A stretch of 64,000 nucleotides of DNA from a virus, in the IMG/VR virus record IMGVR_UViG_3300034095_002511, positions 1 through 64,000 of that record; one strand, written 5' to 3'. This document shows positions 7,337 to 57,001 of this stretch, piece by piece. Made by a program: the position numbers and the translations under genes. How positions within the stretch are numbered: position 1 is the stretch's first letter; every line of letters starts with the position of its first letter. The notes below the pieces were generated by a model. It did no database searches and was not told the DNA's origin. It saw only the letters and a program-made list of their open reading frames with translations.

Positions 7337-7646
7337 TAATGATGCTTTGTTTATCTCAGGCGAATTTTTTGATTACAAGATACCAAAAGATAAGAAGTAT
7401 CTTATGAAGTACTTTTCTACGGGAATACAAGAAAATTTTATTTCATATCTTTTGGTATTTGGAAATTATGATAACTTTGTAGATCATACTGGTATTTTTT
7501 GCAAAAAAAGATATATGCAATTTATGTATGCTAGATTTAAATTGATAGAAGAATCACATCATAAGGCAAAAAAGGAAATGAATTTAGAATTTCTTTCTGA
7601 AATAGAAAGTGGAAAATTTTCATTAAACTCGTTTCCCGAAGCATAA
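7329..7646 (+). CDS. Hypothetical protein
   Basis: The 105-residue protein starts inside the end of the preceding gene. It is rich in aromatic residues in the first 75 positions and ends in a charged helix. No domain is recognised. Its stop codon TAA lies within the GCATAAATA element that precedes the next gene. Confidence 0.5.
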   Translation: MSNNDALFISGEFFDYKIPKDKKYLMKYFSTGIQENFISYLLVFGNYDNFVDHTGIFCKKRYMQFMYARFKLIEESHHKAKKEMNLEFLSEIESGKFSLNSFPEA

Positions 7647-7649
7647 ATA
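7641..7649 (+). promoter_or_regulatory. T4-late-like promoter element GCATAAATA, 4 bp before an ATG
   Basis: GCATAAATA ends exactly four bases before the ATG at 7654, and no Shine-Dalgarno sequence is present. T4 late promoters are just TATAAATA centred near -10, which would place the transcript start at or next to the ATG. The same arrangement is seen at 30192 and 56231. Confidence 0.45.
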
Positions 7650-7653
7650 TGGC

Positions 7654-8193
7654 ATGATAACATTCTCTAATTTTTTGAAAGTAAAAGAATCAAGTTCGGC
7701 AACAAGGATTAAAACACAGGCTGCATTAGGCTTGGCACCTCCTGTTGCAGATATATTTAGCCGTGGAACACCTCCTCCTTGGCAAGTCACAAGATTGAAA
7801 AAAGCATTAAAGAAAAGTCACAAAAAGAAAAGCCGTAAAAAGAAAAGTCATATGATTGGAGAGGCTAAAAAGCCTATGCCAAGAGATTTGAATTTTGATA
7901 AATTTATGTCTTCGATTGAGCTTTTGGCTAAAGATATTTGGGAATTAAAGCTCTTGAAAAATAAAAAAGAAACACAAGAAAAAATGAAAAAAATCATGAA
8001 AAAACATGGTGTTAGTGTAGATGATGATAATGAAGTGGTTGAAAAAGATGATAAGAAGATAGTCAAAAAAGATGATAAAAAGAATGAAAAGAAAGACGAT
8101 AAAAAAGTAATTAAGAAAGACGATAAAAAAGTAATTAAGAAAGACGATAAAAAGGTAATTAAGAAAGACGATAAAAAGGTAATTAAAAAATAA
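7654..8193 (+). CDS. Lys-rich repeat protein with capsid-targeting-like N-terminus
   Basis: The 179-residue protein starts MITFSNFLKVKE, resembling the capsid-targeting peptide of T4 internal proteins (MKTYQEFIAE, cleaved after L/I-x-E). Then come a Pro-rich turn, a basic cluster (about 50-68: LKKALKKSHKKKSRKKKS), a helical middle, and a C-terminal tail of KDDKKVIK octads. The basic composition would suit a DNA-condensing protein packaged with the genome. No Shine-Dalgarno sequence precedes the ATG; a late-promoter-like element does. The inference to an internal virion protein is plausible but indirect. Confidence 0.55.
   Translation: MITFSNFLKVKESSSATRIKTQAALGLAPPVADIFSRGTPPPWQVTRLKKALKKSHKKKSRKKKSHMIGEAKKPMPRDLNFDKFMSSIELLAKDIWELKLLKNKKETQEKMKKIMKKHGVSVDDDNEVVEKDDKKIVKKDDKKNEKKDDKKVIKKDDKKVIKKDDKKVIKKDDKKVIKK
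8094..8189 (+). repeat. 24-bp tandem repeat coding for KDDKKVIK
   Basis: About four copies of a 24-bp unit (AAAGACGATAAAAAAGTAAT plus four bases) lie head to tail and stay in frame. Copies differ by single A/G changes in the third position, so the array is recent and copy number may vary between strains. Confidence 0.85.
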
Positions 8194-8241
8194 GAGCCAA
8201 TTTACAATTGAAATAGATTTAAAGCAGCATTAAAATAGGTT

Positions 8242-8652
8242 ATGGCTACGAATTTAAATTCATTGTGCAAATTACAAAAAAAAGAATTAAATATTTCTTT
8301 GGATGCAAGTCAAAGAACATATCTTGTTGCGGTTTTTATTGATAATATAAACCCATGCAAAAACAAATTGTTAAATATACCATGTGAAAAAGGAATAGCC
8401 ATTAGTGGTTATTCATATGATTGTGCGTCTGATTTTTATGTAAAAGAATGTGTTGATTATTATAGATTGGGAAGCATACAAGGAGTGGCTTGTTTACATA
8501 TTCATAATTCATGGGAAATAAAAATTCCATTATCTTCAAAAATTTGTATGAAACTTATGGATAGAAAACAAAAGAAATTGTTGAAAGATTTTATAAAGAT
8601 TAATGATTATGACAATTTGTCCGTAGAATTTCTTCAAATGGTTGGTGATTAA
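8242..8652 (+). CDS. Hypothetical protein
   Basis: The 136-residue protein begins at an ATG with AGG about five bases upstream. It has six Cys residues spread through the chain, no membrane segment and no recognised domain. The next gene begins directly after its stop, so the two are probably one transcription unit. Confidence 0.5.
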   Translation: MATNLNSLCKLQKKELNISLDASQRTYLVAVFIDNINPCKNKLLNIPCEKGIAISGYSYDCASDFYVKECVDYYRLGSIQGVACLHIHNSWEIKIPLSSKICMKLMDRKQKKLLKDFIKINDYDNLSVEFLQMVGD

Positions 8653-9090
8653 ATGGAAATTCAGAGATTAAAAAATGATGATTATCATATTGGAATTGCT
8701 CTTTTATCATCAGTTAAATCCAAACAAAGAAAAATAGCATTATTTTGCGACACAAATAATATAATTTATATTAGTTCTGAAAATAAGCCTAAAGGTATTA
8801 GTTCTGAGCAAGGTATATTTGTTTTAGAGCCAGAAATATATTTGTTTACTAATCTTAAAATTTTTGATGTTTCTGGTATTCTTTATTTGACTTACACTCC
8901 ATTATTTGAATCTTTGATAATTTTAGCTAATTCTTTGGTAAAAAAAATTGTTTATATTGAAACAGAAGTGATAAATAACGAAGTTGAGCAGTTGTGTTTA
9001 AGTGCAAATATAGATTTGCAAAAATACGATGGAAACCTTCATTGGATAAAGGATTACATATTTTTAATACAACAAGCTGAGATATTTTAA
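8653..9090 (+). CDS. Hypothetical protein, Rossmann-like secondary structure
   Basis: The ATG abuts the previous TAA. The 145-residue protein shows alternating hydrophobic strands (IALFCDTNNIIYI; FVLEPEIYLF; LVKKIVYIETEV) that suggest an alpha/beta fold, but no catalytic motif is visible. It could be a partner of the preceding protein. Function unknown. Confidence 0.5.
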   Translation: MEIQRLKNDDYHIGIALLSSVKSKQRKIALFCDTNNIIYISSENKPKGISSEQGIFVLEPEIYLFTNLKIFDVSGILYLTYTPLFESLIILANSLVKKIVYIETEVINNEVEQLCLSANIDLQKYDGNLHWIKDYIFLIQQAEIF

Positions 9091-9109
9091 GGGATTGGAT
9101 AAATATTAT

Positions 9110-9877
9110 ATGAGTTGCAATTCAAATAAATACACGGGTCAGAGTAGCGGATGCATTGACCAATATGGTTGTAAAAGCGGTGTTTGCCCCGACTTTACTC
9201 TAAGAAGAAATGATACAAAGCCTGATTTTAAAGTAAAGATCGAAGATTGTGATGGCCCTTTAGATCTTACTGATCTCGTGTTAGAGGCTTCGATGTGGTC
9301 AAATGGGAAATTTAAATTCGCAGTCAGCAGCACAGATACATATTTTTCTCTTGCTGATAATATCGGATTTAATCAGATTATGATTGGTGATGTTATAATA
9401 GTTGACAGACCAAGACAGACGGAGCATTTGTTGGTTACAGCCTTTGATGAATCTAATTATTACATTCAAGTACAAAGAGGTTATCATGGAACAATTGCTC
9501 AAAATTGGAAAAAAGGGCAACCTGTAAAAATTATAAAGTTTATGAATTCTGCTGCTCAAACAGAAATGGTATATCAAGATGTGATTGGCGTTGATGGAAT
9601 GACGACCAAAGATGTTTTACAAGAAAGTTATTTCGTATATCAATGGAAAAATGGAGATACATGTTTTCCAGGTTGTTACTTTTTAGAATTTAAACTCATG
9701 AAAATGGCTGTAACGCTAAACTTGGAATCATTATCGGTAATTCCAAGTTTTATAGATCCTAGTAATATTGATTATCATTGCAACATACCTCCCAATATTG
9801 AATGGATCAGAAGATTCCCAGTAGATACTGAAGGCTATATTTTAAAAATTTCAGATAGTCCAACATCAGAGATATGA
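9110..9877 (+). CDS. Probable virion/baseplate protein
   Basis: The frame is open from a TTG at 9095, but the ATG at 9110 is preferred because the upstream GGG sits too close to the TTG. The N-terminus is Cys-rich (five Cys in the first 35 residues). Then RRNDTKPDFKVKIEDCDGPL-DLTDLVLEASM follows the pattern RNDTxPxxxxxLxDxxGxxxDLTGAxVxxxM seen at the N-terminus of many phage baseplate/tail-fibre proteins. The rest is beta-rich. It is 256 residues long. Its place between unknown genes and a metabolic enzyme gives no further hint. Confidence 0.5.
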   Translation: MSCNSNKYTGQSSGCIDQYGCKSGVCPDFTLRRNDTKPDFKVKIEDCDGPLDLTDLVLEASMWSNGKFKFAVSSTDTYFSLADNIGFNQIMIGDVIIVDRPRQTEHLLVTAFDESNYYIQVQRGYHGTIAQNWKKGQPVKIIKFMNSAAQTEMVYQDVIGVDGMTTKDVLQESYFVYQWKNGDTCFPGCYFLEFKLMKMAVTLNLESLSVIPSFIDPSNIDYHCNIPPNIEWIRRFPVDTEGYILKISDSPTSEI

Positions 9878-9884
9878 GAAAATT

Positions 9885-11432
9885 ATGTCATTAGTTTCAA
9901 ATTTTTTGATTGAAAGGCTTGAAAACATTGGTGTTAAACACATTTTTGGAGTTGTTGGTGGTCACAATAATAGTTTTATAGAAAATATAAATAATAATTC
10001 TAAAATAAAATTTATTGCCAATAAAGATGAAAACAGTTCTGGATTTGCTGCTGACATTTACGCTAGGATTCAAGGCACTGGTTGCGTTTGTGCAAATTAC
10101 AATGCGGGAGCCTTAAAGCTTTGCAATTCAATTGCTGGTGCATACTCGGAGAAATCACCAGTCATTGTGATATCCATGTCTCCTCCTATAAAATCAAGAA
10201 ATGAAGATTTTTTATTACATCATGTCGTGAGAAGTTTTGATAACCAGCAAAAAATATTTAAAAACATTACTTGTTATTCGACTATTTTAAATGATGCTAC
10301 AAAAGCAGGTCTGGCTATCGATGAAGGGTTGGAGGCACTTCTGAAAAACAAGCAGCCTATTTACTTAGAGCTTCCTATAGATGTAGCCAATTCACCAATT
10401 AGATATGATGTCTATCGTGACGGAACTCCAAATAGTAAAACAAGCGACAAAGAAACATTACAGGATGCAATAAAAGAAACTTCAGATTGGATTGCCGAAA
10501 GTAAAAATCCTGTGATATTAATAGGTGTTCAAGTTATAAGATACGGACTAAGCAAAAAGATTGTTAGATTTGCAGAAAAACACAATATTCCATTTATGAC
10601 AACATTGCTTGGAAAAAGTTCTGTTGATGAGAACAATCATTTGTTTCGTGGGGTTTATTGTGGCTCTAAGACATCTGATGAAAATGTGAATGCAATTATA
10701 GATCAGTCTGACTGTCTGTTGGTTTTTGGAGAATGTTTATCGGATGTAACTCTTGGATTTCAATCTCCAAGATTTACTAAAAGACATGTTGTTTTTTGCT
10801 CTACTGAAGGTCTTTATATAAAGAATCATGTTTATAATAATGTGACATTTTCTGATTTTTGTAATTATTTATTTGAAATAAATTTTCCTTCTAAGGCAAT
10901 AATTGAAAATTATAAAAATAATGAATATTTTGAAGATTCTAAAAATAATGAATATATTTCTGAAAAATATTTTTTCAATAAAATCAATAATCTTATATGC
11001 AAAGATAATAATTTGGCAATAATAGCCGATGCTGGCGATTTTCTTACAAGTGCTTCTAAATTAAGGGTTTATGAAAATAGATTTTTTAGCCCTGCATTTC
11101 ATTATTCTACAGGATTTGCAATTCCTGGCTCTTTAGGTTTACAACTATCAAAGCCAGAACTTAGACCAATTGTATTGTTGAGTGAAAATTCATTTGATAT
11201 TTCCATGATCGAATTGCATACTTTGTTTCAAAATAAACTTAATCCTATAATTTTTATACTAAGTAATAACATGAATAAATTTTATAATATTGAAAAGTTT
11301 AAACAATTTTTTAATTTCGGTAATGGTTTTATTGTATCTAACAAAGATGAATTAGACAGCGTTATATCTACATCTTTGAAATCTAAAGAAATTAGTCTTA
11401 TAAATGTGACATTTACCAAGGAAAGCACTTAA
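9885..11432 (+). CDS. Thiamine-diphosphate enzyme, pyruvate-decarboxylase-like, altered cofactor motif
   Basis: The 515-residue protein shows the three-domain plan of ThDP decarboxylases: PYR domain with the activating Glu at 49 (DENSSGFAADIYAR) and a His pair at 112-113 (LLHHVV), a middle domain (about 190-330) and a PP domain. The His pair is typical of pyruvate/indolepyruvate decarboxylases. Two usual residues are changed: GDYN near residue 27 reads GGHN, and the Mg/ThDP motif GDG...NN reads SEN (433-435)...SNN (460-462). Glu could replace the Mg-binding Asp, but reduced or altered activity is possible. A decarboxylase or carboligase acting on a 2-oxo acid is the best guess; substrate unknown. 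It ends TAATG into IF-3. Confidence 0.75.
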   Translation: MSLVSNFLIERLENIGVKHIFGVVGGHNNSFIENINNNSKIKFIANKDENSSGFAADIYARIQGTGCVCANYNAGALKLCNSIAGAYSEKSPVIVISMSPPIKSRNEDFLLHHVVRSFDNQQKIFKNITCYSTILNDATKAGLAIDEGLEALLKNKQPIYLELPIDVANSPIRYDVYRDGTPNSKTSDKETLQDAIKETSDWIAESKNPVILIGVQVIRYGLSKKIVRFAEKHNIPFMTTLLGKSSVDENNHLFRGVYCGSKTSDENVNAIIDQSDCLLVFGECLSDVTLGFQSPRFTKRHVVFCSTEGLYIKNHVYNNVTFSDFCNYLFEINFPSKAIIENYKNNEYFEDSKNNEYISEKYFFNKINNLICKDNNLAIIADAGDFLTSASKLRVYENRFFSPAFHYSTGFAIPGSLGLQLSKPELRPIVLLSENSFDISMIELHTLFQNKLNPIIFILSNNMNKFYNIEKFKQFFNFGNGFIVSNKDELDSVISTSLKSKEISLINVTFTKEST

Positions 11433-11989
11433 TGCATCATCAGAACTATCGCAATTATGATAAAGATCCAAACAAACCTAGCGAACTTAGAATAAATTAT
11501 CAAATTAGAGTACTCACTGTAAGAGTCGTAAGAAACGAAGAGCAGCTTGGCATCATGTCAACAGATAATGCAAGAAGAATTGCAGAAGAATCTAATTTTG
11601 ATTTAGTAGAAGTTATCCCAAATGCTAATCCTCCACTTTGTAAAATTATGGATTATGCTAAGTACAAATATGAAAAAAAAGTAAAAGATAAAGAGAGTGC
11701 CAAAAAGAAAAGGGAATCTCAAATACAATTTAAAGAATTGAGATTTAGACCATCTATTGCAGAAAATGACCTTATGACAAAAGTTAATCATGCGAAAAGG
11801 TTTTTGCAAGAAGGTTGTAAGATTCACTGCATCGTTCAATTTAAAGGCGGAAGGGAATTAAATCATATTGACAATGGTTTTAATCTTGTTAAAAAATTGA
11901 TTGATAGTTTGTCTGAATATTCAACAGTGGAAGTTGCTCCTAAATTTGAAGGTAATAAAATATTTTGTTGTTTGGCTTCTAAAGTTTGA
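11432..11989 (+). CDS. infC: Translation initiation factor IF-3
   Basis: The 185-residue protein aligns in order with bacterial IF-3: the N-domain RINYQIRVLTVRVV and LGIMSTDNARRIAEES, then PPLCKIMDYAKYKYE, a Lys-rich linker (KKVKDKESAKKKRE) and the C-domain ELRFRPSIAENDLMTKVNHA with RFLQEGCKIHCIVQFKGGREL. IF-3 binds the 30S platform, checks start-codon and initiator pairing and keeps subunits apart. The ATG overlaps the previous stop (TAATG). Length and domain set are complete, so it should be functional. IF-3 is rare in viruses. It may bias initiation toward phage mRNAs together with bS21. Confidence 0.92.
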   Translation: MHHQNYRNYDKDPNKPSELRINYQIRVLTVRVVRNEEQLGIMSTDNARRIAEESNFDLVEVIPNANPPLCKIMDYAKYKYEKKVKDKESAKKKRESQIQFKELRFRPSIAENDLMTKVNHAKRFLQEGCKIHCIVQFKGGRELNHIDNGFNLVKKLIDSLSEYSTVEVAPKFEGNKIFCCLASKV

Positions 11990-11996
11990 GAAAAAC

Positions 11997-13205
11997 ATGA
12001 ATCCTATTAAAGACACAAATATAATTAGTTTTTTTGAAGAATTCTATAAAAGACTTAATTCTAATTCTAGTTTTTATAAAAAAAAAGATAATTTATTCAT
12101 TTCCAAATTACTTAATTCGGATCACGAAATATTGCGTACTGCGTTTGGTGACATCGGAGATAAAATTGTCGCTTTTTTAAAAAGTGTTGACATAAGCCAT
12201 CCAAATATTGAAGATTGTTATGATGGGATTTTTCAAGATAATGGTGAATTCAACCAAGTATTCGATGAATTATGCTCTTATTATAATTTTGGAAAAGCGA
12301 ATAAATTCACCAAGCTGAGTGAACTTCTTCAAAGTTTTATGAGTAAATATGTTTTAGATAATTTTAAAATATTGTCTAAAATCGATGTTCCAGAAAACAA
12401 CAGATGCAATTTGCGTTTTTTAAATGACAATGAAAAAAAAGAAAAAATCAGATGTCAAAAAAAGATGCAAATAATTGATCTTAATAGTGCTTATAAAAAA
12501 GGAATTTATAATTTTAATTCTCATCCAAATAATTTTTATAATTTTTTAAGATTTGATAAATCTTTAGAAAATGAAGTTAAAAATATGGAACGCAAAGCCA
12601 AAAGATATGAGGATTTGGGTTGTTCTTTTTTGGCAAACGAAATAACAAGCAACTTGCAATCTTATCATGAGTATATACGACAATCTTATTTTGGGTTCAA
12701 TAGAATTACCATGTCCGCTGCCAGTTTGATTCTGTCGAGAAATTTTAACTATACGAGTTCAATCACACCAACTATTTTTTCAGATCAATCAGATATATTT
12801 AAAATATTTGCCACCCAAGGACTTTTTGGAAAATACTTTTTTGATGAAAATGAAGAAATAAATGGTTATGAATATGAGCCTAAAATATACCCATTGAATT
12901 ATTTCAATGATATTATGACCGATAAAGTAAAAGATGTTATAAGCAAATTGGAAAAATTTCCAGAGGCAGACAACAAATCGATATTTGATTTTTATGGTTT
13001 AATAGTACCTTCTTTTGATTTTCCTGTTTTGTCTAAAGATAAAAATTATTCATTTATAGACTGCAATGGGAAATTGAGAGTTTATCAAGATTGTTTGGAA
13101 TCAAAATATGAATTTGATAAAAATATGATTCAAAATAAATATTTTACTCCAATTATAGTTGCTGAGAAAGATCACAAATGTTACTTTATAACATACTGGA
13201 TTTAA
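11997..13205 (+). CDS. Hypothetical protein
   Basis: The track of open codons extends back into infC, but the ATG at 11997, eight bases after the infC stop, is the natural start and gives 402 residues. The protein is rich in Asn, Phe and Lys, looks mainly helical, and lacks recognisable motifs, signal peptide or membrane segment. Size and position suggest a stable phage protein; function unknown. Confidence 0.6.
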   Translation: MNPIKDTNIISFFEEFYKRLNSNSSFYKKKDNLFISKLLNSDHEILRTAFGDIGDKIVAFLKSVDISHPNIEDCYDGIFQDNGEFNQVFDELCSYYNFGKANKFTKLSELLQSFMSKYVLDNFKILSKIDVPENNRCNLRFLNDNEKKEKIRCQKKMQIIDLNSAYKKGIYNFNSHPNNFYNFLRFDKSLENEVKNMERKAKRYEDLGCSFLANEITSNLQSYHEYIRQSYFGFNRITMSAASLILSRNFNYTSSITPTIFSDQSDIFKIFATQGLFGKYFFDENEEINGYEYEPKIYPLNYFNDIMTDKVKDVISKLEKFPEADNKSIFDFYGLIVPSFDFPVLSKDKNYSFIDCNGKLRVYQDCLESKYEFDKNMIQNKYFTPIIVAEKDHKCYFITYWI

Positions 13206-13217
13206 CAAGAGGTGCCA

Positions 13218-13544
13218 ATGATTTCTAAAAAAATTACAATTGAACAACTATTGAGCTTTGCTAAATCAATTTATTATGATGCTTGTTTGGGCCATTTAGA
13301 TTTAATGGATGGTTATTGCGAAAAGGAAGCTGAAAAAATATTTGAAAAATTATCAGATGTGCCTTTGGTTGTATCGGATGATAAAAAAAATATAGATTTT
13401 AAAATCTATGATTCAGAAATGACAAATAGGCAAATTAATCCACAATTATTTGTTTCTAATCAATTTGACCATAACAATTTTTCTACTAATGAAATTTATG
13501 CAAAGAATATTACTATAACAACTAATACAAATGATATTTTTTAG
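13218..13544 (+). CDS. Hypothetical protein
   Basis: ATG 13218 is preferred over GTG 13212 because AGAGG lies about seven bases upstream. The 108-residue product has an N-terminal helical region with a CLGHLDLMDGYCEKEAEKIF segment and a Thr/Asn-rich end. No family recognised. It lies directly before the co-chaperonin. Confidence 0.5.
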   Translation: MISKKITIEQLLSFAKSIYYDACLGHLDLMDGYCEKEAEKIFEKLSDVPLVVSDDKKNIDFKIYDSEMTNRQINPQLFVSNQFDHNNFSTNEIYAKNITITTNTNDIF

Positions 13545-13553
13545 GAGTTTCAA

Positions 13554-13892: not shown

Positions 13893-13897
13893 AAAAA

Positions 13898-14953: not shown

Positions 14954-14974
14954 TATTCAAAAGGAAGGTTTAAA

Positions 14975-15521: not shown

Positions 15522-15541
15522 ATATTAGATATACAAAAATT

Positions 15542-16356: not shown

Positions 16357-16383
16357 ATTTAAAATAAGTAACTAGATTATTTC

Positions 16384-16596: not shown

Positions 16597-16598
16597 AG

Positions 16599-30153: not shown

Positions 30154-30184
30154 AAGGAGTGTTGAAAAACGCTCCTTTTTTTTT
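30154..30184 (+). terminator. Rho-independent terminator
   Basis: Stem GGAGTGTT (30156-30163) / AACGCTCC (30168-30175) with a GAAA loop and one G-T pair, followed by nine T residues. It closes the unit of the Cys-rich secreted protein. Confidence 0.9.
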
Positions 30185-30191: not shown

Positions 30192-30200
30192 GCATAAATA
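30192..30200 (+). promoter_or_regulatory. T4-late-like promoter element GCATAAATA, 4 bp before an ATG
   Basis: GCATAAATA ends four bases before ATG 30205, directly after the terminator of the previous gene, and there is no Shine-Dalgarno sequence. The terminator means the downstream gene needs its own promoter, which strengthens the case. Same layout as at 7641. Confidence 0.5.
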
Positions 30201-30204: not shown

Positions 30205-30561
30205 ATGAAAGATTTTTCGTTTAAAAACTGGTTTAAAATCAATGAAGGTAAAACATCTGGAAAAACTGGTTTGTACCCTCTAGGGTATGGAGGCATTGGA
30301 CTTTACCCATTGCAAACATATTTGCCTAGTTCTGCTGATGCTCTTTTGTATATTAGTTTGGACAATAGGCTTTACGATAACGGTGATGGCCCTCCATTTA
30401 GTATTAAGCACATACCAGGAGAGCCAAAGAATTATGGCGATGGCAATAATGGCACTAAAGCCCCATTTGATATAAGACATATATCAGGACCAGAGCCAAT
30501 TAAGAAGTTTTATACAGCAAAGGATAACTATCCTTTTTCAATAACTCATATTAAAAAATAA
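30205..30561 (+). CDS. Hypothetical protein with capsid-targeting-like N-terminus
   Basis: The 118-residue protein begins MKDFSFKNWFKINEG, matching the F-x-x-W-F-x-x-x-E plan of T4-type capsid targeting. Short repeats follow: GLYPLGYGGIGLYPL and three copies of PF-[SD]-I-[KRT]-HI (about 68, 89, 111). Low hydrophobicity and repeated Gly/Pro suggest an extended protein. With a late-promoter-like element in front, it is a candidate internal virion protein. Confidence 0.5.
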   Translation: MKDFSFKNWFKINEGKTSGKTGLYPLGYGGIGLYPLQTYLPSSADALLYISLDNRLYDNGDGPPFSIKHIPGEPKNYGDGNNGTKAPFDIRHISGPEPIKKFYTAKDNYPFSITHIKK

Positions 30562-38546: not shown

Positions 38547-38578
38547 AAAAAGCGTAGATTTTTCTACGCTTTTTTTTT
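38547..38578 (+). terminator. Rho-independent terminator
   Basis: Stem AAAGCGTAG / CTACGCTTT with loop ATTTT and a long T-run. It ends the 37728-38529 unit. Confidence 0.92.
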
Positions 38579-38589
38579 ATAATTGGTGT

Positions 38590-39348
38590 ATGAATGATGT
38601 CATATTTAGAATCGAAAGATACAGTCAAAAGATTCTAGCAGAGTTGGATTGCATGTCAAATTACCAATATGTTTCCAAAGACATTTTGATAATTGTCCAC
38701 AATCAGCTTTTTTATCTTAAAAAATGTGTCGAATCAATTAGAAAAAATACAAAAAATTATCAAATTTATATTTGGAATAATAATTCAGATCAAGAAACAA
38801 AAAGTTGGATAGAAAGTCAAAAAGACATAATTTGTTCTCATCATGATCAAAATATTGGTTTCATCAAGCCAAACAATGAATTGATGAAAATTTCTAAAAA
38901 TCCATATGCAATTTTATTGAATTCTGATACCGAAGTGTTGCCAAACTGGGATAAGGCAATGATTGGTCAAATTCAACAATATGGCTATGCACAAGTTGGA
39001 TATCTTGGTGGAAAAATAAACGAATCTGGTAAAGGAACAATTTTTAATTTTGGCAGCGATATTGATTACATTTGTGGTTGGTGCTTTTGTATTCCTAGAT
39101 TTATTTATGAAAAATATGGTTTGTTTGACGAAGAACATTTACAGTTTGCCTATTGTGAAGACAGTGATTTTTCTTTAAGACTGACAGAATTCAAGGAAAG
39201 AATTTACGCTTTACATCTTGGATTGGTAACACATCATGAAAATAAAACGATTAAAGAAGTCATGAAAACTATTGATTGTGAGTCTAGCTTTACTCATAAT
39301 CATGAAATTATAAAAAAAAGATGGTCTCATAGATTTTTAAAATCTTAA
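38590..39348 (+). CDS. GT2 family glycosyltransferase
   Basis: The 252-residue protein has DILIIVHNQLFYLKKCVESI (about 31-50), YQIYIWNNNSDQETK, NIGFIKPNNELM, ILLNSDTEVLPNWD (about 111-124) with the SDT metal site, and FAYCEDSDFSLRLTEF, the acid pair of the GT2 C-terminal half. Predicted cytoplasmic inverting transferase. It lies between a terminator and the clpX promoter. Confidence 0.82.
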   Translation: MNDVIFRIERYSQKILAELDCMSNYQYVSKDILIIVHNQLFYLKKCVESIRKNTKNYQIYIWNNNSDQETKSWIESQKDIICSHHDQNIGFIKPNNELMKISKNPYAILLNSDTEVLPNWDKAMIGQIQQYGYAQVGYLGGKINESGKGTIFNFGSDIDYICGWCFCIPRFIYEKYGLFDEEHLQFAYCEDSDFSLRLTEFKERIYALHLGLVTHHENKTIKEVMKTIDCESSFTHNHEIIKKRWSHRFLKS

Positions 39349-42030: not shown

Positions 42031-42954
42031 ATGCAAGCGATTGAAGAAAGGAAAGAATCTATATTAAAGACAAACTTAAAGTATTTTCATCATGTTGATT
42101 TTGATAAAAAGATTACAAGTAAAAAAATATTAGGCGATATACCAGACAAACATAAATTCGATTTGGAATCAAAGAAAGTTTTAAATCTTAGAAATACAAA
42201 CAAACAACCAGAAATGAGACCTTGTTACGAAGAGCCTCTTCTAACGAGGGAACAAGAATATCATCTTTTTAAACAACTTAATTTTCTCAAATTCAAAGCT
42301 AAAAATTTAATTGAAAAATTGAATTGCAAAAAATCAATCAAAACAAAAATAGAAAAAATAGAAAATCTCCAAATTAAAATATATGATTTGCGTAACAAGA
42401 TAGCAAGTTCTAATTTTCGTTTGGCAACACACATTTTGAAAAACGATTTTAAAAGTTATAGAGAAAAACGCAATCTGGATAACTATTTGTCAGATGCTTA
42501 TATGGATGTGATAAAATCTGTTGATTATTTCAATTACACTCTTGGAAATAAGTTTAGTACATATTGTGTTTGGGTTCTCCGTAAAAACTTCTTCAGAATG
42601 ATTAATCTTAAAAAAAATAAAAAAAATGAATTTTATAGTATTGACGATAATCAAACAGAAATTCAAAATTCGGCAGAAATATTCCTTACATCAGAAGTGC
42701 ATCAAAAAGAAAATGCAATATTTATCAATCGTGTTATTGAAACTGCAAAAAAAAGACTTAATACAAGAGATATCAATAGGCAGATTTTAATCATTGAGCA
42801 TTATTTTGGAATTAATGGAAAAGAAAGAAAAAATCTTGAAGAAATAAGCGGTTTATTGGAAATAACGAAGGAAAGAGTAAGGCAGTTAAAAGAGAAATTT
42901 TTGATTTCTATGCGTGAAACTGTAAGGAACACGGATTGTAAAAATGTACTCTAA
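42031..42954 (+). CDS. RNA polymerase sigma factor (sigma-70 family)
   Basis: The 307-residue protein carries region 1.2-like PLLTREQEYHLFKQLNFLK (about 68-86), region 2 with NFRLATHILKNDF (about 127-139) and DAYMDVIKSVDYFNYTLGNKFSTYCVWVLRK as core-binding and -10 recognition parts, and region 4 with LEEISGLLEITKERVRQLKEK (about 270-290). The region 1.2 wording resembles sigma factors I associate with Planctomycetes. It could direct host RNA polymerase to phage promoters such as the TTTACTTT type. Region 3 is short. Not obviously truncated. Confidence 0.82.
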   Translation: MQAIEERKESILKTNLKYFHHVDFDKKITSKKILGDIPDKHKFDLESKKVLNLRNTNKQPEMRPCYEEPLLTREQEYHLFKQLNFLKFKAKNLIEKLNCKKSIKTKIEKIENLQIKIYDLRNKIASSNFRLATHILKNDFKSYREKRNLDNYLSDAYMDVIKSVDYFNYTLGNKFSTYCVWVLRKNFFRMINLKKNKKNEFYSIDDNQTEIQNSAEIFLTSEVHQKENAIFINRVIETAKKRLNTRDINRQILIIEHYFGINGKERKNLEEISGLLEITKERVRQLKEKFLISMRETVRNTDCKNVL

Positions 42955-48051: not shown

Positions 48052-48059
48052 GGAAGATA

Positions 48060-49228: not shown

Positions 49229-49240
49229 TTTGGGGGATAT

Positions 49241-49717: not shown

Positions 49718-50400
49718 CTTTTATATTTTTTATCTGGTACGAAATCAGTCACACCAATAAGATCACTAATGCAAGTAGCCAAGTAATCACTAAATAACAT
49801 GCACATTTCTTTATCTGATCTTAATTCATGTGCTATTTCTAATTGTAATGCCTGTACGCTATTGTCAAAATTCCATTTGCGAAATAATTGATTCATATTG
49901 TTCCTTGACCATCCACTAAAAGGACCTCCAGATTTGCCTTCGTATGCATTAATTCCAAAACTTAAAAGTCTATGCATAAAGAAATCTTTTCTCCAAATAT
50001 CCATACTGTAGCTTGCTGGATTGCCCTCTCCATAGCCAATGACCATATCGATCTTATCATTTATTTTACTTCTATGCTTATTGCTCATTCCATGAATGTT
50101 ATAAAGAAAAACTGTATCACCAAGGGCTTTTGCTTTTTTTGTAAATTTAAGCATAGGTTCTAGTATTTCTTCATCAACAACTTCTGTGTGGCAATGATCA
50201 ACATTGTTACAATCAGCTTTATCTCTGATGCAGTCAACTGTGTCTGCTCTTTCCCATCCTTTGTTTATGACCGCAAATGCAGATATTTGCCTCGCAATGT
50301 TTTCTGCGATAATTGCAGTGTTTTCATCATTGCCTTGAAATCCATGAGGAGCAAAAATAACTACTGGTATTTGGCCTTCAATTAAACTTACTCTTTCCAT
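49711..50400 (-). CDS. N-formylglutamate-amidohydrolase-like protein
   Basis: The 229-residue protein shows PVVIFAPHGFQGNDENT (about 12-28) with the His/Asn metal site, VFLYNIHGMSN (about 96-106), VIGYGEGNPASYSM, SGGPFSGWSRNNMNQ and ALQLEIAHELR, the order of N-formylglutamate amidohydrolase-like zinc hydrolases. The activity could be amide or gamma-glutamyl cleavage. The stop of the HAD gene overlaps its start region. With the amidoligase- and cyclotransferase-like genes it points at amide/gamma-glutamyl chemistry. Confidence 0.65.
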   Translation of the reverse strand: MERVSLIEGQIPVVIFAPHGFQGNDENTAIIAENIARQISAFAVINKGWERADTVDCIRDKADCNNVDHCHTEVVDEEILEPMLKFTKKAKALGDTVFLYNIHGMSNKHRSKINDKIDMVIGYGEGNPASYSMDIWRKDFFMHRLLSFGINAYEGKSGGPFSGWSRNNMNQLFRKWNFDNSVQALQLEIAHELRSDKEMCMLFSDYLATCISDLIGVTDFVPDKKYKSY

Positions 50401-50804
50401 TAAACTTCCTTATATTCCACTTTTATAGTTTTTATGCCGTGATCTTTGGCACTTTCTAATTCTTCATCTTTATCGTCATAATGCAATTTTACATTTAATT
50501 TTTTTAAAATTGGGCCTTTTGGCTCATGGTTGGTGAAAAATATTTTCTCAATTGGTATTTGATGTTTTTTTAAGAATTTAATTATAGTAGTACGATTTGG
50601 TTGATTTTCTTGCCACCATTCCTCTGATTCATGCTCATGATTCCTTGCGGTTACTATTATGCATGTACAGCCTTCACGATGGTAATTTTTGAGAATTTTA
50701 ACAATTTCTTCATTTGGAACGCCATATTTTAAGCATAAAGTATCGTCAAAGTCAAAGCTTATTATATCTGGCTGTTCCCACTCAAAAAAATGAATAATGT
50801 TCAT
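50400..50804 (-). CDS. HAD-superfamily phosphatase
   Basis: The 134-residue protein has ISFDFDDTLCL (about 15-25) with the nucleophile Asp, VTARN (about 51-55) and KKLNVKLHYDDKDEEL with the final acid pair, so the HAD core is complete but without a cap domain. It starts MNIIHFFEWEQ, slightly like the capsid-targeting peptides. No ribosome site precedes the ATG; TATAAATA does (five bases away). Phosphatase substrate unknown. Confidence 0.78.
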   Translation of the reverse strand: MNIIHFFEWEQPDIISFDFDDTLCLKYGVPNEEIVKILKNYHREGCTCIIVTARNHEHESEEWWQENQPNRTTIIKFLKKHQIPIEKIFFTNHEPKGPILKKLNVKLHYDDKDEELESAKDHGIKTIKVEYKEV

Positions 50805-50809
50805 GGCTT

Positions 50810-50817
50810 TATTTATA
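50810..50817 (-). promoter_or_regulatory. TATAAATA element before the HAD gene (minus strand)
   Basis: A perfect T4 late consensus TATAAATA on the reverse strand ends five bases before the ATG at 50804. No Shine-Dalgarno sequence is present. Confidence 0.45.
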
Positions 50818-50876
50818 AGTTTTTAAAATCAATTTGTCAAAAATTTTTATCATTAGGATAAATTTCTTGAAATAAA

Positions 50877-50905
50877 TTGGCAGCAACAACGAACAACTAT
50901 ATGTA
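50877..50905 (+). promoter_or_regulatory. Sigma-70-like promoter TTGGCA-N17-TATGTA
   Basis: TTGGCA (50877-50882) and TATGTA (50900-50905), 17 bases apart, upstream of the 50950 gene in the gap between divergent genes. Confidence 0.4.
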
Positions 50906-50949
50906 AGGGTAAAAGATCAGGTTGAGTTTCGGACAAATCTTTTTACCTT

Positions 50950-51894: not shown

Positions 51895-52210
51895 TAGTTT
51901 AGCTGTGGTTCCAATCATCAGAAAGAATGATAGTTGGATATTTCCTGAGTGGAATATCCAACTTGATTCTGAAATTTTTAAAATATTTATTGAACATTCA
52001 AAGGAAGTGTGCAATGATGGTATTTCATTAGTGATATCATCGGGAAAAATTCCTAATTACGATATGTTCATTAAGCTTATTTCCAAAAATGATAATTTCA
52101 TATTGTATGCTACTGAATCTAATGTTATAAAACTTCCTGTAGAGTTGCAGGATAAACTTCCTAATATTGATTTTTTATATGTAACAGTGAAAGGTCTGAA
52201 CTATGAATGA
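51887..52210 (+). CDS. Hypothetical protein
   Basis: The start, with GGAG upstream, overlaps the end of the possible sigma factor. The 107-residue protein is alpha/beta-looking (ISLVISSGKIPNYDMFIKLI). No domain recognised. It ends overlapping the next gene. Confidence 0.5.
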   Translation: MSNSLAVVPIIRKNDSWIFPEWNIQLDSEIFKIFIEHSKEVCNDGISLVISSGKIPNYDMFIKLISKNDNFILYATESNVIKLPVELQDKLPNIDFLYVTVKGLNYE

Positions 52211-52421
52211 ATTTAACCCTAGATCCAAAAAAAATAATGATTTTGAAGACAATAGAAATAAGCCTAAAGATCCATCATTTTCCATTAAGCATCGTGTTGA
52301 TGTCGATTTAGATCTTAATCTGGCTTTAGACATTGGGGATTTTATTGTGGCTTGCAAATCTACTAATCCAGCTATTATGGCTTTTGGCTTACAGTTACAG
52401 AACTTAGTACCACCGAGTTGA
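52203..52421 (+). CDS. Hypothetical protein (72 aa)
   Basis: A 72-residue protein with a charged, disordered N-terminus and VDVDLDLNLALDIGDFIVA, an alternating Asp/Leu stretch. The PSFSIKH segment resembles the PFSIKH repeats of the protein at 30205. Function unknown. Confidence 0.45.
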   Translation: MNEFNPRSKKNNDFEDNRNKPKDPSFSIKHRVDVDLDLNLALDIGDFIVACKSTNPAIMAFGLQLQNLVPPS

Positions 52422-52423
52422 TT

Positions 52424-53266
52424 ATGTTTGATTTTATTTTCACGGAAGAAAAAAATATTTTTAATTTTGCCCAGAAATTTAAAGAATATTGGTCATCGCA
52501 CTCTAAATCAATTTCAACACCTTCTTTTTTAATATTTGGAAAGAAAGGTTCTCCGTCTTGTATTGTTTTTTCTAAAAATGATTATGAGATTGCATCAATT
52601 GTCAAACTGTTCAAAGTTGGTGCCTCAATAGATCAAGTGTGCATTTGTGTTGATGGAAATATCAATACAGAAAAAAAAGATTCGTCATTTTCGATTTTGT
52701 TTTATAACGACAATTCATTTGATGGAAAATGCTTTGATTATAAATGCGATAGTGATTACAAAATAACTTGGAATGATGAATCTCCAATCAATCTGGAAAA
52801 TAAGAATTCATGGTTGTTAATACAAAGTATTATAAAATCAAAGCCAGAAGACCAAGATGACTCTGCTTTTTTGAACCGTATTGGATTCAGCGAAGATAGA
52901 CAGTATTTGCACAATATTAGAAGTGTTTATTCTTTCGTGTCTTCCAAATATGATTTGTTTATCATTGACTTGATTTCGGCAAAACACCCTGATTGGTGTG
53001 ACGCTTCAACGAAAATGAAAAAATTATGCAAATATCTTTTAGTTAACAAATTAATTTCTGATGAATGCTTTTTGCAACTTTTAGAAACAATGCCACTTCT
53101 TGGAACTGTAAAGTTTATTGATGGTGTGACTAGCATTGTTAAAGAAAATATTAAAAATTGCGATATTAATGTCATTATAAGTCCAGAACACTTTGCCGAA
53201 AACTTGCAAAGGAAAATATTTGATTTTAATTTTGATTTGTATAAATCTGATTTTTATTCTTGGTGA
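52424..53266 (+). CDS. Hypothetical protein
   Basis: ATG 52424 is used (a TTG at 52418 overlaps the previous stop). The 280-residue protein has an alpha/beta N-terminal half (IVFSKNDYEIASIVKLFKVG) and a helical C-terminal half containing SVYSFVSSKYDLFIIDLISA and HPDWCDASTKMKKLC. No family is recognised. Confidence 0.55.
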   Translation: MFDFIFTEEKNIFNFAQKFKEYWSSHSKSISTPSFLIFGKKGSPSCIVFSKNDYEIASIVKLFKVGASIDQVCICVDGNINTEKKDSSFSILFYNDNSFDGKCFDYKCDSDYKITWNDESPINLENKNSWLLIQSIIKSKPEDQDDSAFLNRIGFSEDRQYLHNIRSVYSFVSSKYDLFIIDLISAKHPDWCDASTKMKKLCKYLLVNKLISDECFLQLLETMPLLGTVKFIDGVTSIVKENIKNCDINVIISPEHFAENLQRKIFDFNFDLYKSDFYSW

Positions 53267-53302
53267 CTATTAGTCTTCTTTACTGTTCGTGAAATGTTGG
53301 TA

Positions 53303-53311
53303 TGGTATAAT
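53303..53311 (+). promoter_or_regulatory. Extended -10 promoter element TGGTATAAT
   Basis: The same nine bases as in the clpX promoter. They sit 15 bases before GTG 53327, so translation must start at or after that codon. No good -35 is seen, as is usual with extended -10 promoters. Confidence 0.5.
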
Positions 53312-53326
53312 TATGGAGTTTATACT

Positions 53327-53557
53327 GTGAAAAAAAATAATCTTGAAATCAAAAAGAAGATTATGAATTTTTTAAATTCTATTATAAAATCAGCATCATC
53401 AAATGAAGAAGATGAAGTTAATGTAGCTATTGATTTGTTGGCATTAACTTTTGATTTTTTACCAGATGAAAGAAAGCAACAAATACTTGATTTTATAGGA
53501 GAAGAATACAAAGTTGTTCCTCCAAAGTTTTTTACAATTGACGAATTACCCTTTTAG
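53327..53557 (+). CDS. Hypothetical protein
   Basis: Codons run back to 53294, but the promoter element at 53303 lies within that part, so GTG 53327 with GGAG nine bases upstream is chosen (76 residues). The product is helical and acidic (FLNSIIKSASSNEEDEVNVA, LPDERKQQILDFIGEEY). No motif. Confidence 0.5.
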   Translation: MKKNNLEIKKKIMNFLNSIIKSASSNEEDEVNVAIDLLALTFDFLPDERKQQILDFIGEEYKVVPPKFFTIDELPF

Positions 53558-53561
53558 AGAA

Positions 53562-53762
53562 ATGAAAATGAAAAAAATAATTTTTGATACCTCAGATGGT
53601 GTTCATGTCGAAGCAGAGAGGTTGTCACCCAATTATCCTTGGGATGTTGCCCATGATTTTGGAGATTTTAGATTCTACGGAACTAAAGCAGAGATGCTTA
53701 GTGAGGTAGAAAAAGTATTGAAGATGATTATCGAAATAGACAAAAAGGCAGGGTACAATTAA
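53562..53762 (+). CDS. Hypothetical protein (66 aa)
   Basis: ATG 53562 lies just after the previous stop with a weak ribosome site. A short beta-rich N-terminus (IIFDTSDGVHVEAERL) is followed by a helix with AEMLSEVEKVLKMIIEI. It overlaps the next ATG. Confidence 0.45.
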   Translation: MKMKKIIFDTSDGVHVEAERLSPNYPWDVAHDFGDFRFYGTKAEMLSEVEKVLKMIIEIDKKAGYN

Positions 53763-54196
53763 TGAAAATTAAACCAATATATAAAAAAATATTTGAAAGC
53801 GTATACATCAATTGGTGCTATATAGGAGAGGCAAAAAGAAAAGAATCTGATATGGAAACTAATATTCACACCAAAGTAACCTTTGACGAAGATACGAAAA
53901 GGATAGAATTGCTTGCTTGTCCATCGAGAAATGAAATTGTTGGAGGAGCAAGAGATGGCAAAACATTCTATTACAATTTTGCCTTCGATGTTGCTGGTTG
54001 TATCGAGAATCTAATATCAAAAAAGATTGAAATTCATAATATTTTATACGCATCTAAAAGTAAATCTTTAGAGTGCGATATGATTATATTTGTACTCAAT
54101 TATAGAAAAGAAGAAGTGGTTCTGAAAGTTTTTTCTAGACCAGCTAAAGATATTGAAAAAATAAAGATAACACAAAACAAATTTAAGGACTGCTAA
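53762..54196 (+). CDS. Hypothetical protein
   Basis: The 144-residue protein begins MKIKPIYKKIFESVYINWCY and has a mixed alpha/beta body (KTFYYNFAFDVAGCIENLIS). No recognised family. Start and stop overlap both neighbours, supporting a coupled run. Confidence 0.5.
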   Translation: MKIKPIYKKIFESVYINWCYIGEAKRKESDMETNIHTKVTFDEDTKRIELLACPSRNEIVGGARDGKTFYYNFAFDVAGCIENLISKKIEIHNILYASKSKSLECDMIIFVLNYRKEEVVLKVFSRPAKDIEKIKITQNKFKDC

Positions 54197-54654
54197 TGAG
54201 TGTTTTAAATGAATTTGATAATAGTGATTACGAAAAAATTGGAGTAAGAACATTCTTTGTTTTGAAAAGAGACAATAGATGGATGTTTGAAAAAAATGGA
54301 GAATTTTATGATTTTGCACCAGCACAAATTACAGATATGGCATTATCTCCAGTGGTTGTTGGAACAGACAGATTGATAAATATAGGATGCAAGCTTAAAA
54401 AATTATCAGATTATAAAAATGGCTTTATTCTTTTGGTATCAGATAATTATTTTCCATCATGTGATGTTAAAATGATTTACAAAGAGCCATTGTATGATGG
54501 TTGGCTTTATGATGTCCATGAGGAAAATCTCAAAGGTATGATGTCTGATCAAGGGGCTTGGATTTGTCCTTATATAAAGTTTTATTACAAAGAACCACCT
54601 AAGAATTTATATTTAAAAATGGAATCAGTCACCAAAAACAGTACACCAATATAG
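54196..54654 (+). CDS. Hypothetical protein
   Basis: The 152-residue protein has RTFFVLKRDNRWMFEKNGEF (about 17-36) and, after a turn, ALSPVVVGTDRLINIGCKLK. The pattern looks like a small beta-rich domain. No family could be named with confidence. It ends overlapping a convergent lipoprotein gene by 30 bases. Confidence 0.5.
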   Translation: MSVLNEFDNSDYEKIGVRTFFVLKRDNRWMFEKNGEFYDFAPAQITDMALSPVVVGTDRLINIGCKLKKLSDYKNGFILLVSDNYFPSCDVKMIYKEPLYDGWLYDVHEENLKGMMSDQGAWICPYIKFYYKEPPKNLYLKMESVTKNSTPI

Positions 54655-55125
54655 ACTTCCATCTTTTGCTGATGCGACACCAAATCCAACTTTGGAAAAA
54701 CTTCTATTCAGGATATTTGCACGATGACCAGAAGAATTCATCCATGAATTTGTCACTTCATCCTCGTCTTCTTGATTCCAAGCTATGTTTTCACCAGCAG
54801 TATGATATTTACCCATTAAAACAGATATATCAGAATGAGTAAGGTTGTTTTTTTTAGCCATCCATTCAGCATGCTTTTGTGCGTAATTTATAAGAGTTTT
54901 ATCTAAATCTAATCCAACCCTGCCTTTGTACTCTCTTTGTTTATTATGCAGCTTTAAGAGCTTTAGATTTGATTCGGAATATTCATTTTTATAATCTATA
55001 TTTTGACTAGGTTTTTCTTCTACAGGATTTTGCTTTATTTTATTTGAATTATCATTAGTTGTTTTTGGGCAACCACATAAAAATAATGTAAAAAAAAAAG
55101 AAATTTTAAATAAACTATTGATAAT
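54625..55125 (-). CDS. CAP-domain lipoprotein with apparent ATT start
   Basis: Reading the reverse strand upstream of the ATG at 54861, the frame stays open for 88 more codons to an in-frame stop at 55138-55140. This adds a lipoprotein signal (NSLFKISFFFTLFLCGC) and the first half of a CAP domain: LLKLHNKQREYKGRVG, then AQKHAEWMAKKNNLTHSD, GENIAW and WMNSSGHRANIL, all CAP/SCP signatures. No ATG, GTG or TTG lies in the added part. AGGAG precedes ATT (55125), four bases away (ATC at 55122 is seven away). The 166-residue product should be a lipid-anchored surface protein, possibly from a planctomycete-like host. Confidence 0.72.
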   Translation of the reverse strand: MINSLFKISFFFTLFLCGCPKTTNDNSNKIKQNPVEEKPSQNIDYKNEYSESNLKLLKLHNKQREYKGRVGLDLDKTLINYAQKHAEWMAKKNNLTHSDISVLMGKYHTAGENIAWNQEDEDEVTNSWMNSSGHRANILNRSFSKVGFGVASAKDGSLYWCTVFGD

Positions 55126-55137
55126 TCGACTCCTATT

Positions 55138-55656
55138 TTAAATATTTTCAAGATCTTTAAGTTCATGCTGTTGTGCTATGTAGCTATTTCCGTGACCTAA
55201 ATTACCCATTCTTTCTTCTTTTAAAAGCTCTTCACTTTTCATAAATCCTTTAAATGTATATGTTGGGAAAGTTCCTATCATCAAAGCGAACAAATCGACA
55301 TTTTGTTTCTTCCATCTCACAGCAAGTAGTCTTCCTGTTAAATATCTTGTGCTTTTTACATCGACAGTTCTTCCATCACGCAGCACAGCATCGCCTTGAT
55401 CTGTACCATCTATTGAAGATTTTACTTGTGCAGTTAGATCGGGATATACATTGAACATCTTACAAAACGCCAATTCAGATGAAACTCCTTCAAGATCAGT
55501 CTGCTCATTAGATTGATCGCCAATTTTAGAGTTTTTGACATTCATACTTCTTGAATTTTGATATCTTTTTTTGGCGATAGCCTTGCAGATTAACTGTTCG
55601 GTTGGATCAAGAGTTATTGTGACTCCTAATGCCACTGGATTTTCAAGTTCATTCAT
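55138..55656 (-). CDS. PD-(D/E)XK nuclease-like protein
   Basis: The 172-residue protein has GVSSELAFCKMFNVYPD (about 57-73) with the core Glu, DGTDQGDAVLRDG with Asp, and TVDVKSTRYLTGRL (D-x-K) at about 97-110, the order E...D...DxK of PD-(D/E)XK nucleases. It might be a restriction-like or DNA-processing nuclease. AAGGAG is upstream. It ends in the gap before the CAP lipoprotein. Confidence 0.6.
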   Translation of the reverse strand: MNELENPVALGVTITLDPTEQLICKAIAKKRYQNSRSMNVKNSKIGDQSNEQTDLEGVSSELAFCKMFNVYPDLTAQVKSSIDGTDQGDAVLRDGRTVDVKSTRYLTGRLLAVRWKKQNVDLFALMIGTFPTYTFKGFMKSEELLKEERMGNLGHGNSYIAQQHELKDLENI

Positions 55657-55771
55657 AATTTTCTCCTTTGAATGAAGAGATTTTAAATCATTTCTAATAT
55701 TAAAGCAAGATCGATTGACAAATGAAACAAATCAAATTATTCTTATGAAAACAAACTCAAGGAGAATTATT

Positions 55772-56239
55772 ATGTGTTCTTTATTTTCAGTTATATTTCT
55801 ATTGTTGTCGCAAGATAAAATTGAAAACCCTATTGCTGTTGAGGTTTCAACTAAAAATTATTGGATTAAATTCAATGATTTGATCCATGAATTCAATAAA
55901 AAGACAAATTCAAAACCATCAATTGCAACTAATGAAATTAAATACACTATTGCAGAAATTAGAAAGATACCAACTAAAAATGTTGATATGAAAGTTCTTA
56001 AATATTCTGAAAAAAGAATAGGTTTTGCCGTAGATTATAGTGCCTTTTTAGATTCCATTGATATAGCAGATGATATCCAATACTATAAAACTGAATTTCC
56101 AATTAAGAAAAAAAGAGAAACATTCCAAGAAATGCAGAAAAGATATGAAATACTTTTCGACAAAAATAAGACTTTGGATGAAGAACAAAAAGAATTGCTT
56201 GCTTATTTGCAAGAAAAATACAAAATATTAGATAAATAA
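55772..56239 (+). CDS. Exported protein
   Basis: Codons run back to 55715, but ATG 55772 has AAGGAG eight bases before it and starts a signal-peptide-like segment (MCSLFSVIFLLLSQ). The 155-residue product is otherwise hydrophilic and helical. Its stop overlaps the GATAAATAA element preceding the next gene. Function unknown. Confidence 0.55.
   Translation: MCSLFSVIFLLLSQDKIENPIAVEVSTKNYWIKFNDLIHEFNKKTNSKPSIATNEIKYTIAEIRKIPTKNVDMKVLKYSEKRIGFAVDYSAFLDSIDIADDIQYYKTEFPIKKKRETFQEMQKRYEILFDKNKTLDEEQKELLAYLQEKYKILDK
56231..56238 (+). promoter_or_regulatory. T4-late-like promoter element GATAAATA, 4 bp before an ATG
   Basis: GATAAATA ends exactly four bases before ATG 56243, without a Shine-Dalgarno sequence. 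Same spacing as at 7641 and 30192. It partly overlaps the stop of the preceding gene. Confidence 0.45.
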
Positions 56240-56242
56240 TGT

Positions 56243-57001
56243 ATGTTCAAATTGAATTTTAAAAATTACCTTATTGAAGATTTGTTGCAAGAAGTTTCGT
56301 TTAATTGGACTGATCCCATAACTGGGAAAACATATCCAGCGATGCAAGCACCACTTAATTCTGTCAAGTTGTCTAATTTTGGTACTGGTTTTGGATATCA
56401 ATTTAAATCAAAAGAATATGATATTGAGCATTCTGACAATTATGAAGTTCAATTTGAAAATTTCGGCAGAAGATTATCGGCTGAAATTGCTAAGATATTT
56501 CTCGCAAAACTTTCAATCGATAAGAATTCTGATTTAGGTAAAAAAATTATTGATATATTTTTAAATAATCTAAAATCAATTTTCAAATTAGATTTATATA
56601 GCGAAAAAAGTAATTTTACTCCAAAATTTGGTAAATTTGAAGAAAGCGATCCATTATTTGTATATGCCAATGTGATTGTTGCAACCAGAAAGGTTATCGA
56701 GGAAAAGAATCCTGATGCGTTTTGGATATCTCCCAGTGATCAAGACCCAAGCTTAATATCAATATATGATAGATTTTACAAACATTATCTTCACACCCAA
56801 TACGCTTTTGTTGGATCTGACTTTTATATAAAGAAAGAAAAAATTGATAGCATAATAAGAGATTCAAGAAAAATAGATCAATCTTTACCAGATAAACTCA
56901 TTAAAATAATACAAGATGTAGATTTAGAAAAGAAATCTTATGTTTCTAAAATAAGAAAATTTAAAATGTCTCATAAAAATAAAGCATCTTCAATATCATA
57001 A
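56243..57001 (+). CDS. Capsid-targeting-like N-terminus protein, paralogue of 57435
   Basis: The 252-residue protein begins MFKLNFKNYLIED, matching the F-x-x-[FWY]-L-x-x-E/D plan. The body ends in VIVATRKVIEEKNPDAFWIS and SIYDRFYKHYLHTQYAFVGSDF, a block shared with the gene at 57435 and with T4-like phage proteins in which I recall AFSAxxxxxSRxxLY. It is probably a virion-associated protein. Late-promoter-like element in front, no ribosome site. Confidence 0.5.
   Translation: MFKLNFKNYLIEDLLQEVSFNWTDPITGKTYPAMQAPLNSVKLSNFGTGFGYQFKSKEYDIEHSDNYEVQFENFGRRLSAEIAKIFLAKLSIDKNSDLGKKIIDIFLNNLKSIFKLDLYSEKSNFTPKFGKFEESDPLFVYANVIVATRKVIEEKNPDAFWISPSDQDPSLISIYDRFYKHYLHTQYAFVGSDFYIKKEKIDSIIRDSRKIDQSLPDKLIKIIQDVDLEKKSYVSKIRKFKMSHKNKASSIS

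Follow-up and report, generated by a model that had tools for sequence, protein, structure and literature searches.

Why do several genes of one phage begin exactly four bases after the heptamer ATAAATA, without a ribosome site in front of them? The question arises in a 64,000-nucleotide stretch of viral DNA (positions 1 to 64,000 of IMG/VR record IMGVR_UViG_3300034095_002511; hereafter the window), part of a record of 92,977 bases. An initial look at the letters, here called the sequence-only reading, had noted this arrangement at three genes and related boxes at two others, and had proposed promoters of the bacteriophage T4 late type with the RNA start at or next to the ATG. Our analysis supports that proposal: the box is enriched 4–6 nt before the ATG in five relatives of the phage, and this enrichment is absent from T4, Syn9, KVP40 and Lak phage A1 (Lak-A1). 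We consider it probable, with good confidence, that the boxes are T4-late-type −10 elements set so that RNA starts at or within 1–2 bases of the ATG, which would yield leaderless late mRNAs.

The window contains five exact ATAAATA-N4-ATG matches, all on the plus strand (7643, 9099, 30194, 54376 and 56232), compared with 0.96 expected from dinucleotide shuffles, none of 100 of which reached five. Four of these matches are gene starts (7654, 9110, 30205 and 56243). The three genes originally listed are among them, with exact matches at 7643, 30194 and 56232; gene 9110 had been overlooked because the longest open reading frame (ORF) there opens at a TTG at 9095. We rejected the match at 54376 as a gene start, as it sits within ORF 54196–54654 and its ATG opens no gene. 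Gene 57435 does have a box, TATATATA, at a measured spacing of N5 and not the N4 first reported, and the minus-strand HAD gene at 50804(−) carries TATAAATA-N5-ATG as described. No more exact matches occur in the remainder of the 93-kb record or in a 165-kb contig that is identical in matched genes and lengthens the available sequence of the phage to 168 kb. A CTAAATA-N4-ATG variant precedes gene 68060, just beyond the window.

The sequence-only reading had suggested counting the heptamer against shuffled upstream regions, and this gave four occurrences at gene starts versus 0.08 (p = 0.0005). For broader counts, genes were called with a simple home-made codon-usage finder whose scoring slightly favours Shine-Dalgarno sites, and the quantity counted was the gap from TAWATA to the called ATG. 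Expected counts at gap 4–6 were taken from positions 60–113 upstream, with shuffles as a second null for the window phage; the reversed motif ATAWAT was dropped as a control because it overlaps with TATATA. By this measure the window phage has 11 genes with TAWATA at gap 4–6, versus 0.9 expected from the upstream positions or 2.1 from shuffles, a modest enrichment. The motif in this genome alone is suggestive only, and three genes by themselves would not carry the claim.

The evidence that does carry it comes from related genomes, all metagenome assemblies, in which the motif, its spacing and lineage distribution, the gene content and the gp55-like genes were computed directly. By protein, the closest sequenced relatives are the huge uncultured phages LR756511 (595 kb), LR756502 (642 kb) and LR745206 (635 kb). 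TAWATA stands at gap 4–6 in 46 genes of LR756511 versus 1.8 expected, in 144 genes of LR756502 versus 10.8 (first 600 kb) and in 90 genes of LR745206 versus 6.9 (first 400 kb). Two more huge phages, each found through a single motif match, gave 35 versus 1.2 and 24 versus 1.6. Enrichment at this gap is thus overwhelming in five related huge phages; a lack of genome-wide enrichment, the outcome originally named as counting against the idea, is not what we found. With motif and spacing left free in LR756511, TAAATA-N5 was the top signal other than Shine-Dalgarno (score 21.0 versus a null maximum of 14.1), and the motif preceded 46 of 938 true starts compared with 4 of 3,377 internal in-frame ATGs. 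The box is also kept between orthologues, both in LR756502 versus LR745206 (p = 3e-10) and in the window phage versus LR756511 (p = 0.002). When IMG/VR was scanned across spacings for TAAATA before codons for MKTFxx(E/Q)W, ten matches had N4, four N5, one N10 and two N24, a few of the contigs carrying identical copies.

Outside these phages the arrangement disappears. T4, Syn9 and KVP40 have zero genes with TAWATA at gap 4–6, because the box there clusters ~20–32 nt upstream, a distance that leaves room for a ribosome site, and in LR756508 the signal is wholly absent. In Lak-A1, which is 26% GC, carries a gp55-like gene and is nearly devoid of Shine-Dalgarno sites, ATAAATA stands at 24–28 nt with no gap 4–6 peak; AT-richness and Shine-Dalgarno loss therefore do not produce the pattern. 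In cyanophage P-SSM2, five genes have TAWATA 4–6 nt before the ATG versus 0.9 expected, so cyanophages may hold a few leaderless late genes.

The geometry of the box fits a promoter element. Gaps of 0–3 are almost empty, with a pile-up at 4–5 and a peak at 4–6; an empty range followed by a peak at the minimum that keeps the AUG within the RNA is what a box that sets the RNA start should produce. In T4 late promoter numbering the box lies at −13 to −6 (PMC2988020), so that N5 puts +1 on the A of the AUG. N4 is the prevailing spacing in LR756502 and LR745206. For bacteria, a −10-like signal 10–12 bp before the start is an accepted basis for inferring leaderless genes (PMC3160421), and the gap peak of 4–6 corresponds to a −10 element at that distance. 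Among aligned sites of LR756511 and LR756502 the core TAWATA is invariant by selection and the flanks are variable. The box of LR756511 comes with an AT patch at −30 to −27, whose position was read off the leaderless class (p = 2e-12) and borne out by the leadered one (p = 2e-5); T4 and Syn9 show no such patch. In both classes the patch, 17–20 bp upstream of the box, follows the box and not the ATG, which argues that the box acts like a DNA promoter element.

Neighbouring features leave little space for a leader. Terminators adjoin or run into the box at gene 30205 in the window and at seven genes of LR756502 and six of LR745206; in LR756502 a terminator stands directly before the start at 7 of 140 box genes versus 9 of 675. 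At 30205 an intrinsic terminator stem-loop (30154..30177, +; T-run to ~30185; −13.8 kcal/mol, z −3.2) leaves ~19 nt up to the ATG. In LR756511, LR756502 and LR745206, some divergent ATGs lie 15–18 bp apart with one palindromic box between them, 4–6 nt from each. With either layout a leader would have little space, or none at all, unless the RNA began within the adjacent gene. Elsewhere in the window (38548–38590), a terminator is followed directly by TATAAT-N6-ATG at a glycosyltransferase-like gene (38590), possibly a leaderless gene with a sigma-70-type −10 box.

The genes behind the boxes are of the kind that T4 transcribes late. In LR756511 they include a virion head protein, a tail tube protein, a head–tail adaptor and tail proteins, and box genes carry the short N-terminal MKxYxEF-like sequence that marks capsid targeting in T4: 25 of 46 box genes of LR756511 have it versus 40 of 892 others (p = 2e-19), as do 7 of 11 box genes of the window phage versus 16 of 183 (p = 3e-5, for a capsid-targeting-like N-terminus). 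The suggested link between box and capsid-targeting group thus holds and generalizes, although the exclusion of the HAD gene from that group is doubtful, since MNIIHFFEWEQPD fits the same N-terminal pattern; a HAD protein of LR756511 starts MNLNFRQYVEGL. A gp21-type (S77) prohead protease is encoded by LR756511 (E 7e-28) and an S77 peptidase by LR756508; none of the gp21 type was found in the available fragment of the window phage. The box serves 5–18% of genes in several huge phages. At G000:63001–92977, genes with capsid-targeting-like N-termini are densely clustered; most of them have longer leaders or Shine-Dalgarno sites, and the leaderless layout therefore serves only part of the capsid-targeting group.

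From these data we infer the exact RNA 5′ end, the late timing, the use of a gp55-like factor and the mode of translation as follows. ATAAATA boxes, or more generally N-N-TAWATA, would be T4-late-type −10 promoter elements, recognized by a small gp55-like late sigma factor that would direct transcription by the host core polymerase. RNA would start at, or one or two bases from, the A of the start codon, and the resulting leaderless late mRNAs, lacking Shine-Dalgarno sites, would be translated through recognition of the 5′-terminal AUG. The genes so served would encode virion components, along with proteins that bear capsid-targeting N-termini. Candidate factors are at hand, as gp55-family matches were found in LR756511 (two), LR756502, LR745206, G002, G005, G006 and Lak-A1, and the proteins of LR756511 and LR756502 retain the YLNNK start and domain-2 core of T4 gp55.

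Several observations weigh against this model. T4 spacing predicts N5; for N4 the RNA would have to begin one base nearer to the box. The ATGs of genes 7654 and 56243 follow an upstream stop codon at 7 and 3 nt, which may allow their translation to be coupled on longer mRNAs as well. No gp55 homologue was found in the available 168 kb of the window phage, a fragment; because the record is itself a fragment, the absence of a gene from it says little. A search confined to the clamp family phrog_223 found no T4-type sliding clamp in LR756511 or LR756502 and a weak match in LR745206, and we therefore do not claim clamp-coupled activation. Finally, when any 7-mer at any spacing is allowed in this genome, the best score other than Shine-Dalgarno is matched by 20% of rotated controls (p = 0.20).

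Of the other explanations, the one that survives best, though we judge it unlikely, is that the boxes are −10 elements for host sigma-70 or for a phage sigma factor, with leaderless mRNA and no T4-type late system. The window does encode a sigma-70-family factor (42031..42954, +) that contains regions 2 and 4 and is a candidate partner; we rejected it as a gp55, which it does not resemble. The fragment of the window phage, as noted, shows no gp55 homologue. The HAD gene, moreover, has TTGACA-N17-TATAAA-N7-ATG: a sigma-70-like −35 (50835..50840, −) lies 17 nt upstream of TATAAA, so its promoter fits sigma-70 too. That −35 is, however, unique to this one among the listed sites, and a sigma-70 promoter for all of them was rejected on that ground. 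Also against this explanation, aligned sites of LR756511 and LR756502 show no −35 consensus, the box agrees with the gp55 consensus and is similar to a variant noted for Aeh1, five long relatives with the arrangement also have gp55-like genes, and the served genes are virion genes.

It is improbable, and more so than the sigma-70 explanation, that the AT-rich box is a translation-initiation element (an A/U-rich ribosome or S1 binding site) in leadered mRNAs and no promoter at all. The box does occupy the expected place of a ribosome site, Shine-Dalgarno sites are nearly absent in LR756502 and LR745206, and huge phages with S1-like proteins seldom have them (PMC7162821). Against this, the box spells the T4 late promoter core, the AT patch further upstream tracks it in both LR756511 classes, the same genomes also carry the same box at 16–30 nt, divergent genes share a palindromic box, terminators adjoin it, and Lak-A1, also without Shine-Dalgarno sites, has no gap 4–6 peak. 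The lack of ribosome sites that was first remarked on is real (a Shine-Dalgarno site precedes 1 of 46 box genes of LR756511 and 1 of 11 of the window phage), but it is partly forced by the position of the box. Since the box occupies the same bases, we rejected Shine-Dalgarno depletion as independent support for leaderless transcription.

Chance in an AT-rich genome, with three similar starts picked post hoc, is very improbable as an explanation. The rotated controls show that this genome alone cannot reject it, and the original judgement that chance was unlikely gains its force from elsewhere: far higher counts are repeated in five other huge phages, the pattern is missing from AT-rich Lak-A1 and from internal ATGs, and homologues of 9110 and 30205 retain the box. 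Least credible of all is that the start codons are misplaced, with true starts downstream and short leaders on the mRNAs, because, even though the starts came from a home-made gene finder, these ATGs are exactly where capsid-targeting N-termini begin, and the alignments of many orthologues run from residue 1.

The individual sites in the window are as follows. The first box, (C)ATAAATA (7643..7649, +), stands 4 nt before ATG 7654 and overlaps the TAA stop of ORF 7329–7646; the gene (7654..8193, +) has a capsid-targeting-like N-terminus, MITFSNFLKVKESS, and no Shine-Dalgarno site. The second, (G)ATAAATA (9099..9105, +), lies 4 nt before ATG 9110 of a tail-like protein (9110..9877, +), whose LR756511 orthologue (328977-, E 2e-83) has the same start residue and TATATA-N5-ATG. 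Past the terminator described above, (C)ATAAATA (30194..30200, +) precedes ATG 30205 by 4 nt; the gene, MKDFSFKNWFKINEGKTSGKTGLYPLGYGGIGLYP (30205..30561, +), has two IMG/VR homologues (L247 and L248: MKTFSQWLTERITGIYPLGYGGLGLYP) that share TAAATA-N4-ATG. On the minus strand, the TATAAATA box (50810..50817) stands 5 nt before ATG 50804 of the HAD-type phosphatase (50400..50804), with the capsid-targeting-like N-terminus MNIIHFFEWEQ. The fourth ATAAATA at a gene start, (G)ATAAATA (56232..56238, +), is 4 nt from ATG 56243 and overlaps the TAA stop of ORF 55715–56239; the gene, MFKLNFKNYLIEDL (56243..57001, +), is a paralogue of 57435 and of G000:67075. The TATATATA box (57422..57429, +) stands 5 nt before ATG 57435 of a gene with a capsid-targeting-like N-terminus, MKSFYQYINELRS (57435..58052, +). 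Elsewhere, the window encodes a thiamine-diphosphate enzyme of the indolepyruvate decarboxylase/acetolactate synthase family (9885–11432), with 43% identity to one in LR756511.

Phages of the size of LR756502 and LR745206 are assigned by Al-Shayeb et al. 2020 (PMC7162821) to the Mahaphage clade, which has Bacteroidetes hosts, and these two probably belong there. Querying IMG/VR with three proteins of the window phage matched near-identical contigs of the same phage only, and a host search using a secreted Cys-rich peptide gave no match. The window also encodes a full-length phage IF3 (11432–11989) in which a single Gly is inserted into the conserved FRGRE loop, possibly linked to start-site choice; LR756511 likewise encodes IF3, without the insertion, so that altered IF3 function through it is no more than a lead. 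In E. coli, IF3 tends to work against leaderless messages (PMC9031893). More broadly, a huge-phage clade could use a late sigma factor to shift its virion genes to leaderless mRNAs, transcribed and translated unlike host or early messages, with phage initiation factors such as the window IF3 tuning ribosomes, an idea that we hold only tentatively and with more doubt than belief. If the T4-late-type reading is true, tail tube and other virion proteins are made from leaderless mRNA, which would help to explain translation in phages whose genomes largely lack Shine-Dalgarno sites. In uncultured phages it would also serve as a cheap genome signature by which to spot late genes and promoters, and what leaderless initiation does during a lytic infection would become directly testable.

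T4 late transcription is a textbook system, and T4 late mRNAs carry leaders with ribosome sites. Like the boxes described here, T4 late promoters (gp55/gp33/gp45; Geiduschek & Kassavetis 2010, PMC2988020) have an 8-bp TATA box at about −10 with the core TAAATA, lack a −35 consensus and serve virion genes. In T4 itself, the TATAAATA-type box precedes the transcription start by about one helical turn. The likeness extends to the relatives, which encode gp55-like domain-2 sigma factors and, in LR756511, the gp21-type (S77) prohead protease. Unlike in T4, where the box is 20–30 nt from the ATG, it is 4–6 nt away in the huge phages, with no Shine-Dalgarno site and probably no leader; TATATA variants dominate LR756502 and LR745206, LR756511 has the extra AT patch at −30, and no T4 clamp homologue was found in LR756511 or LR756502. 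In the open-licence literature searched, we found no report of T4-type late promoters yielding leaderless mRNAs.

Bacterial leaderless genes, recognized by a −10-like signal 10–12 bp before the start (Zheng et al. 2011, PMC3160421), share the diagnostic geometry and the inference drawn from it, but here the genomes are those of huge phages and a phage late-type promoter takes the place of the Pribnow box. The late promoters of phiKZ, TATG with G as the start site (PMC4666361), likewise put a late motif of a giant phage at the start site; phiKZ differs in having its own multisubunit polymerase and no −10 TATA box, and leaderless status is not stated there. Lak-A1 (MK250015) is likewise a huge phage with a gp55-like gene, an ATAAATA box and no Shine-Dalgarno sites, in which the box at 24–28 nt apparently marks a late promoter with leadered mRNAs.

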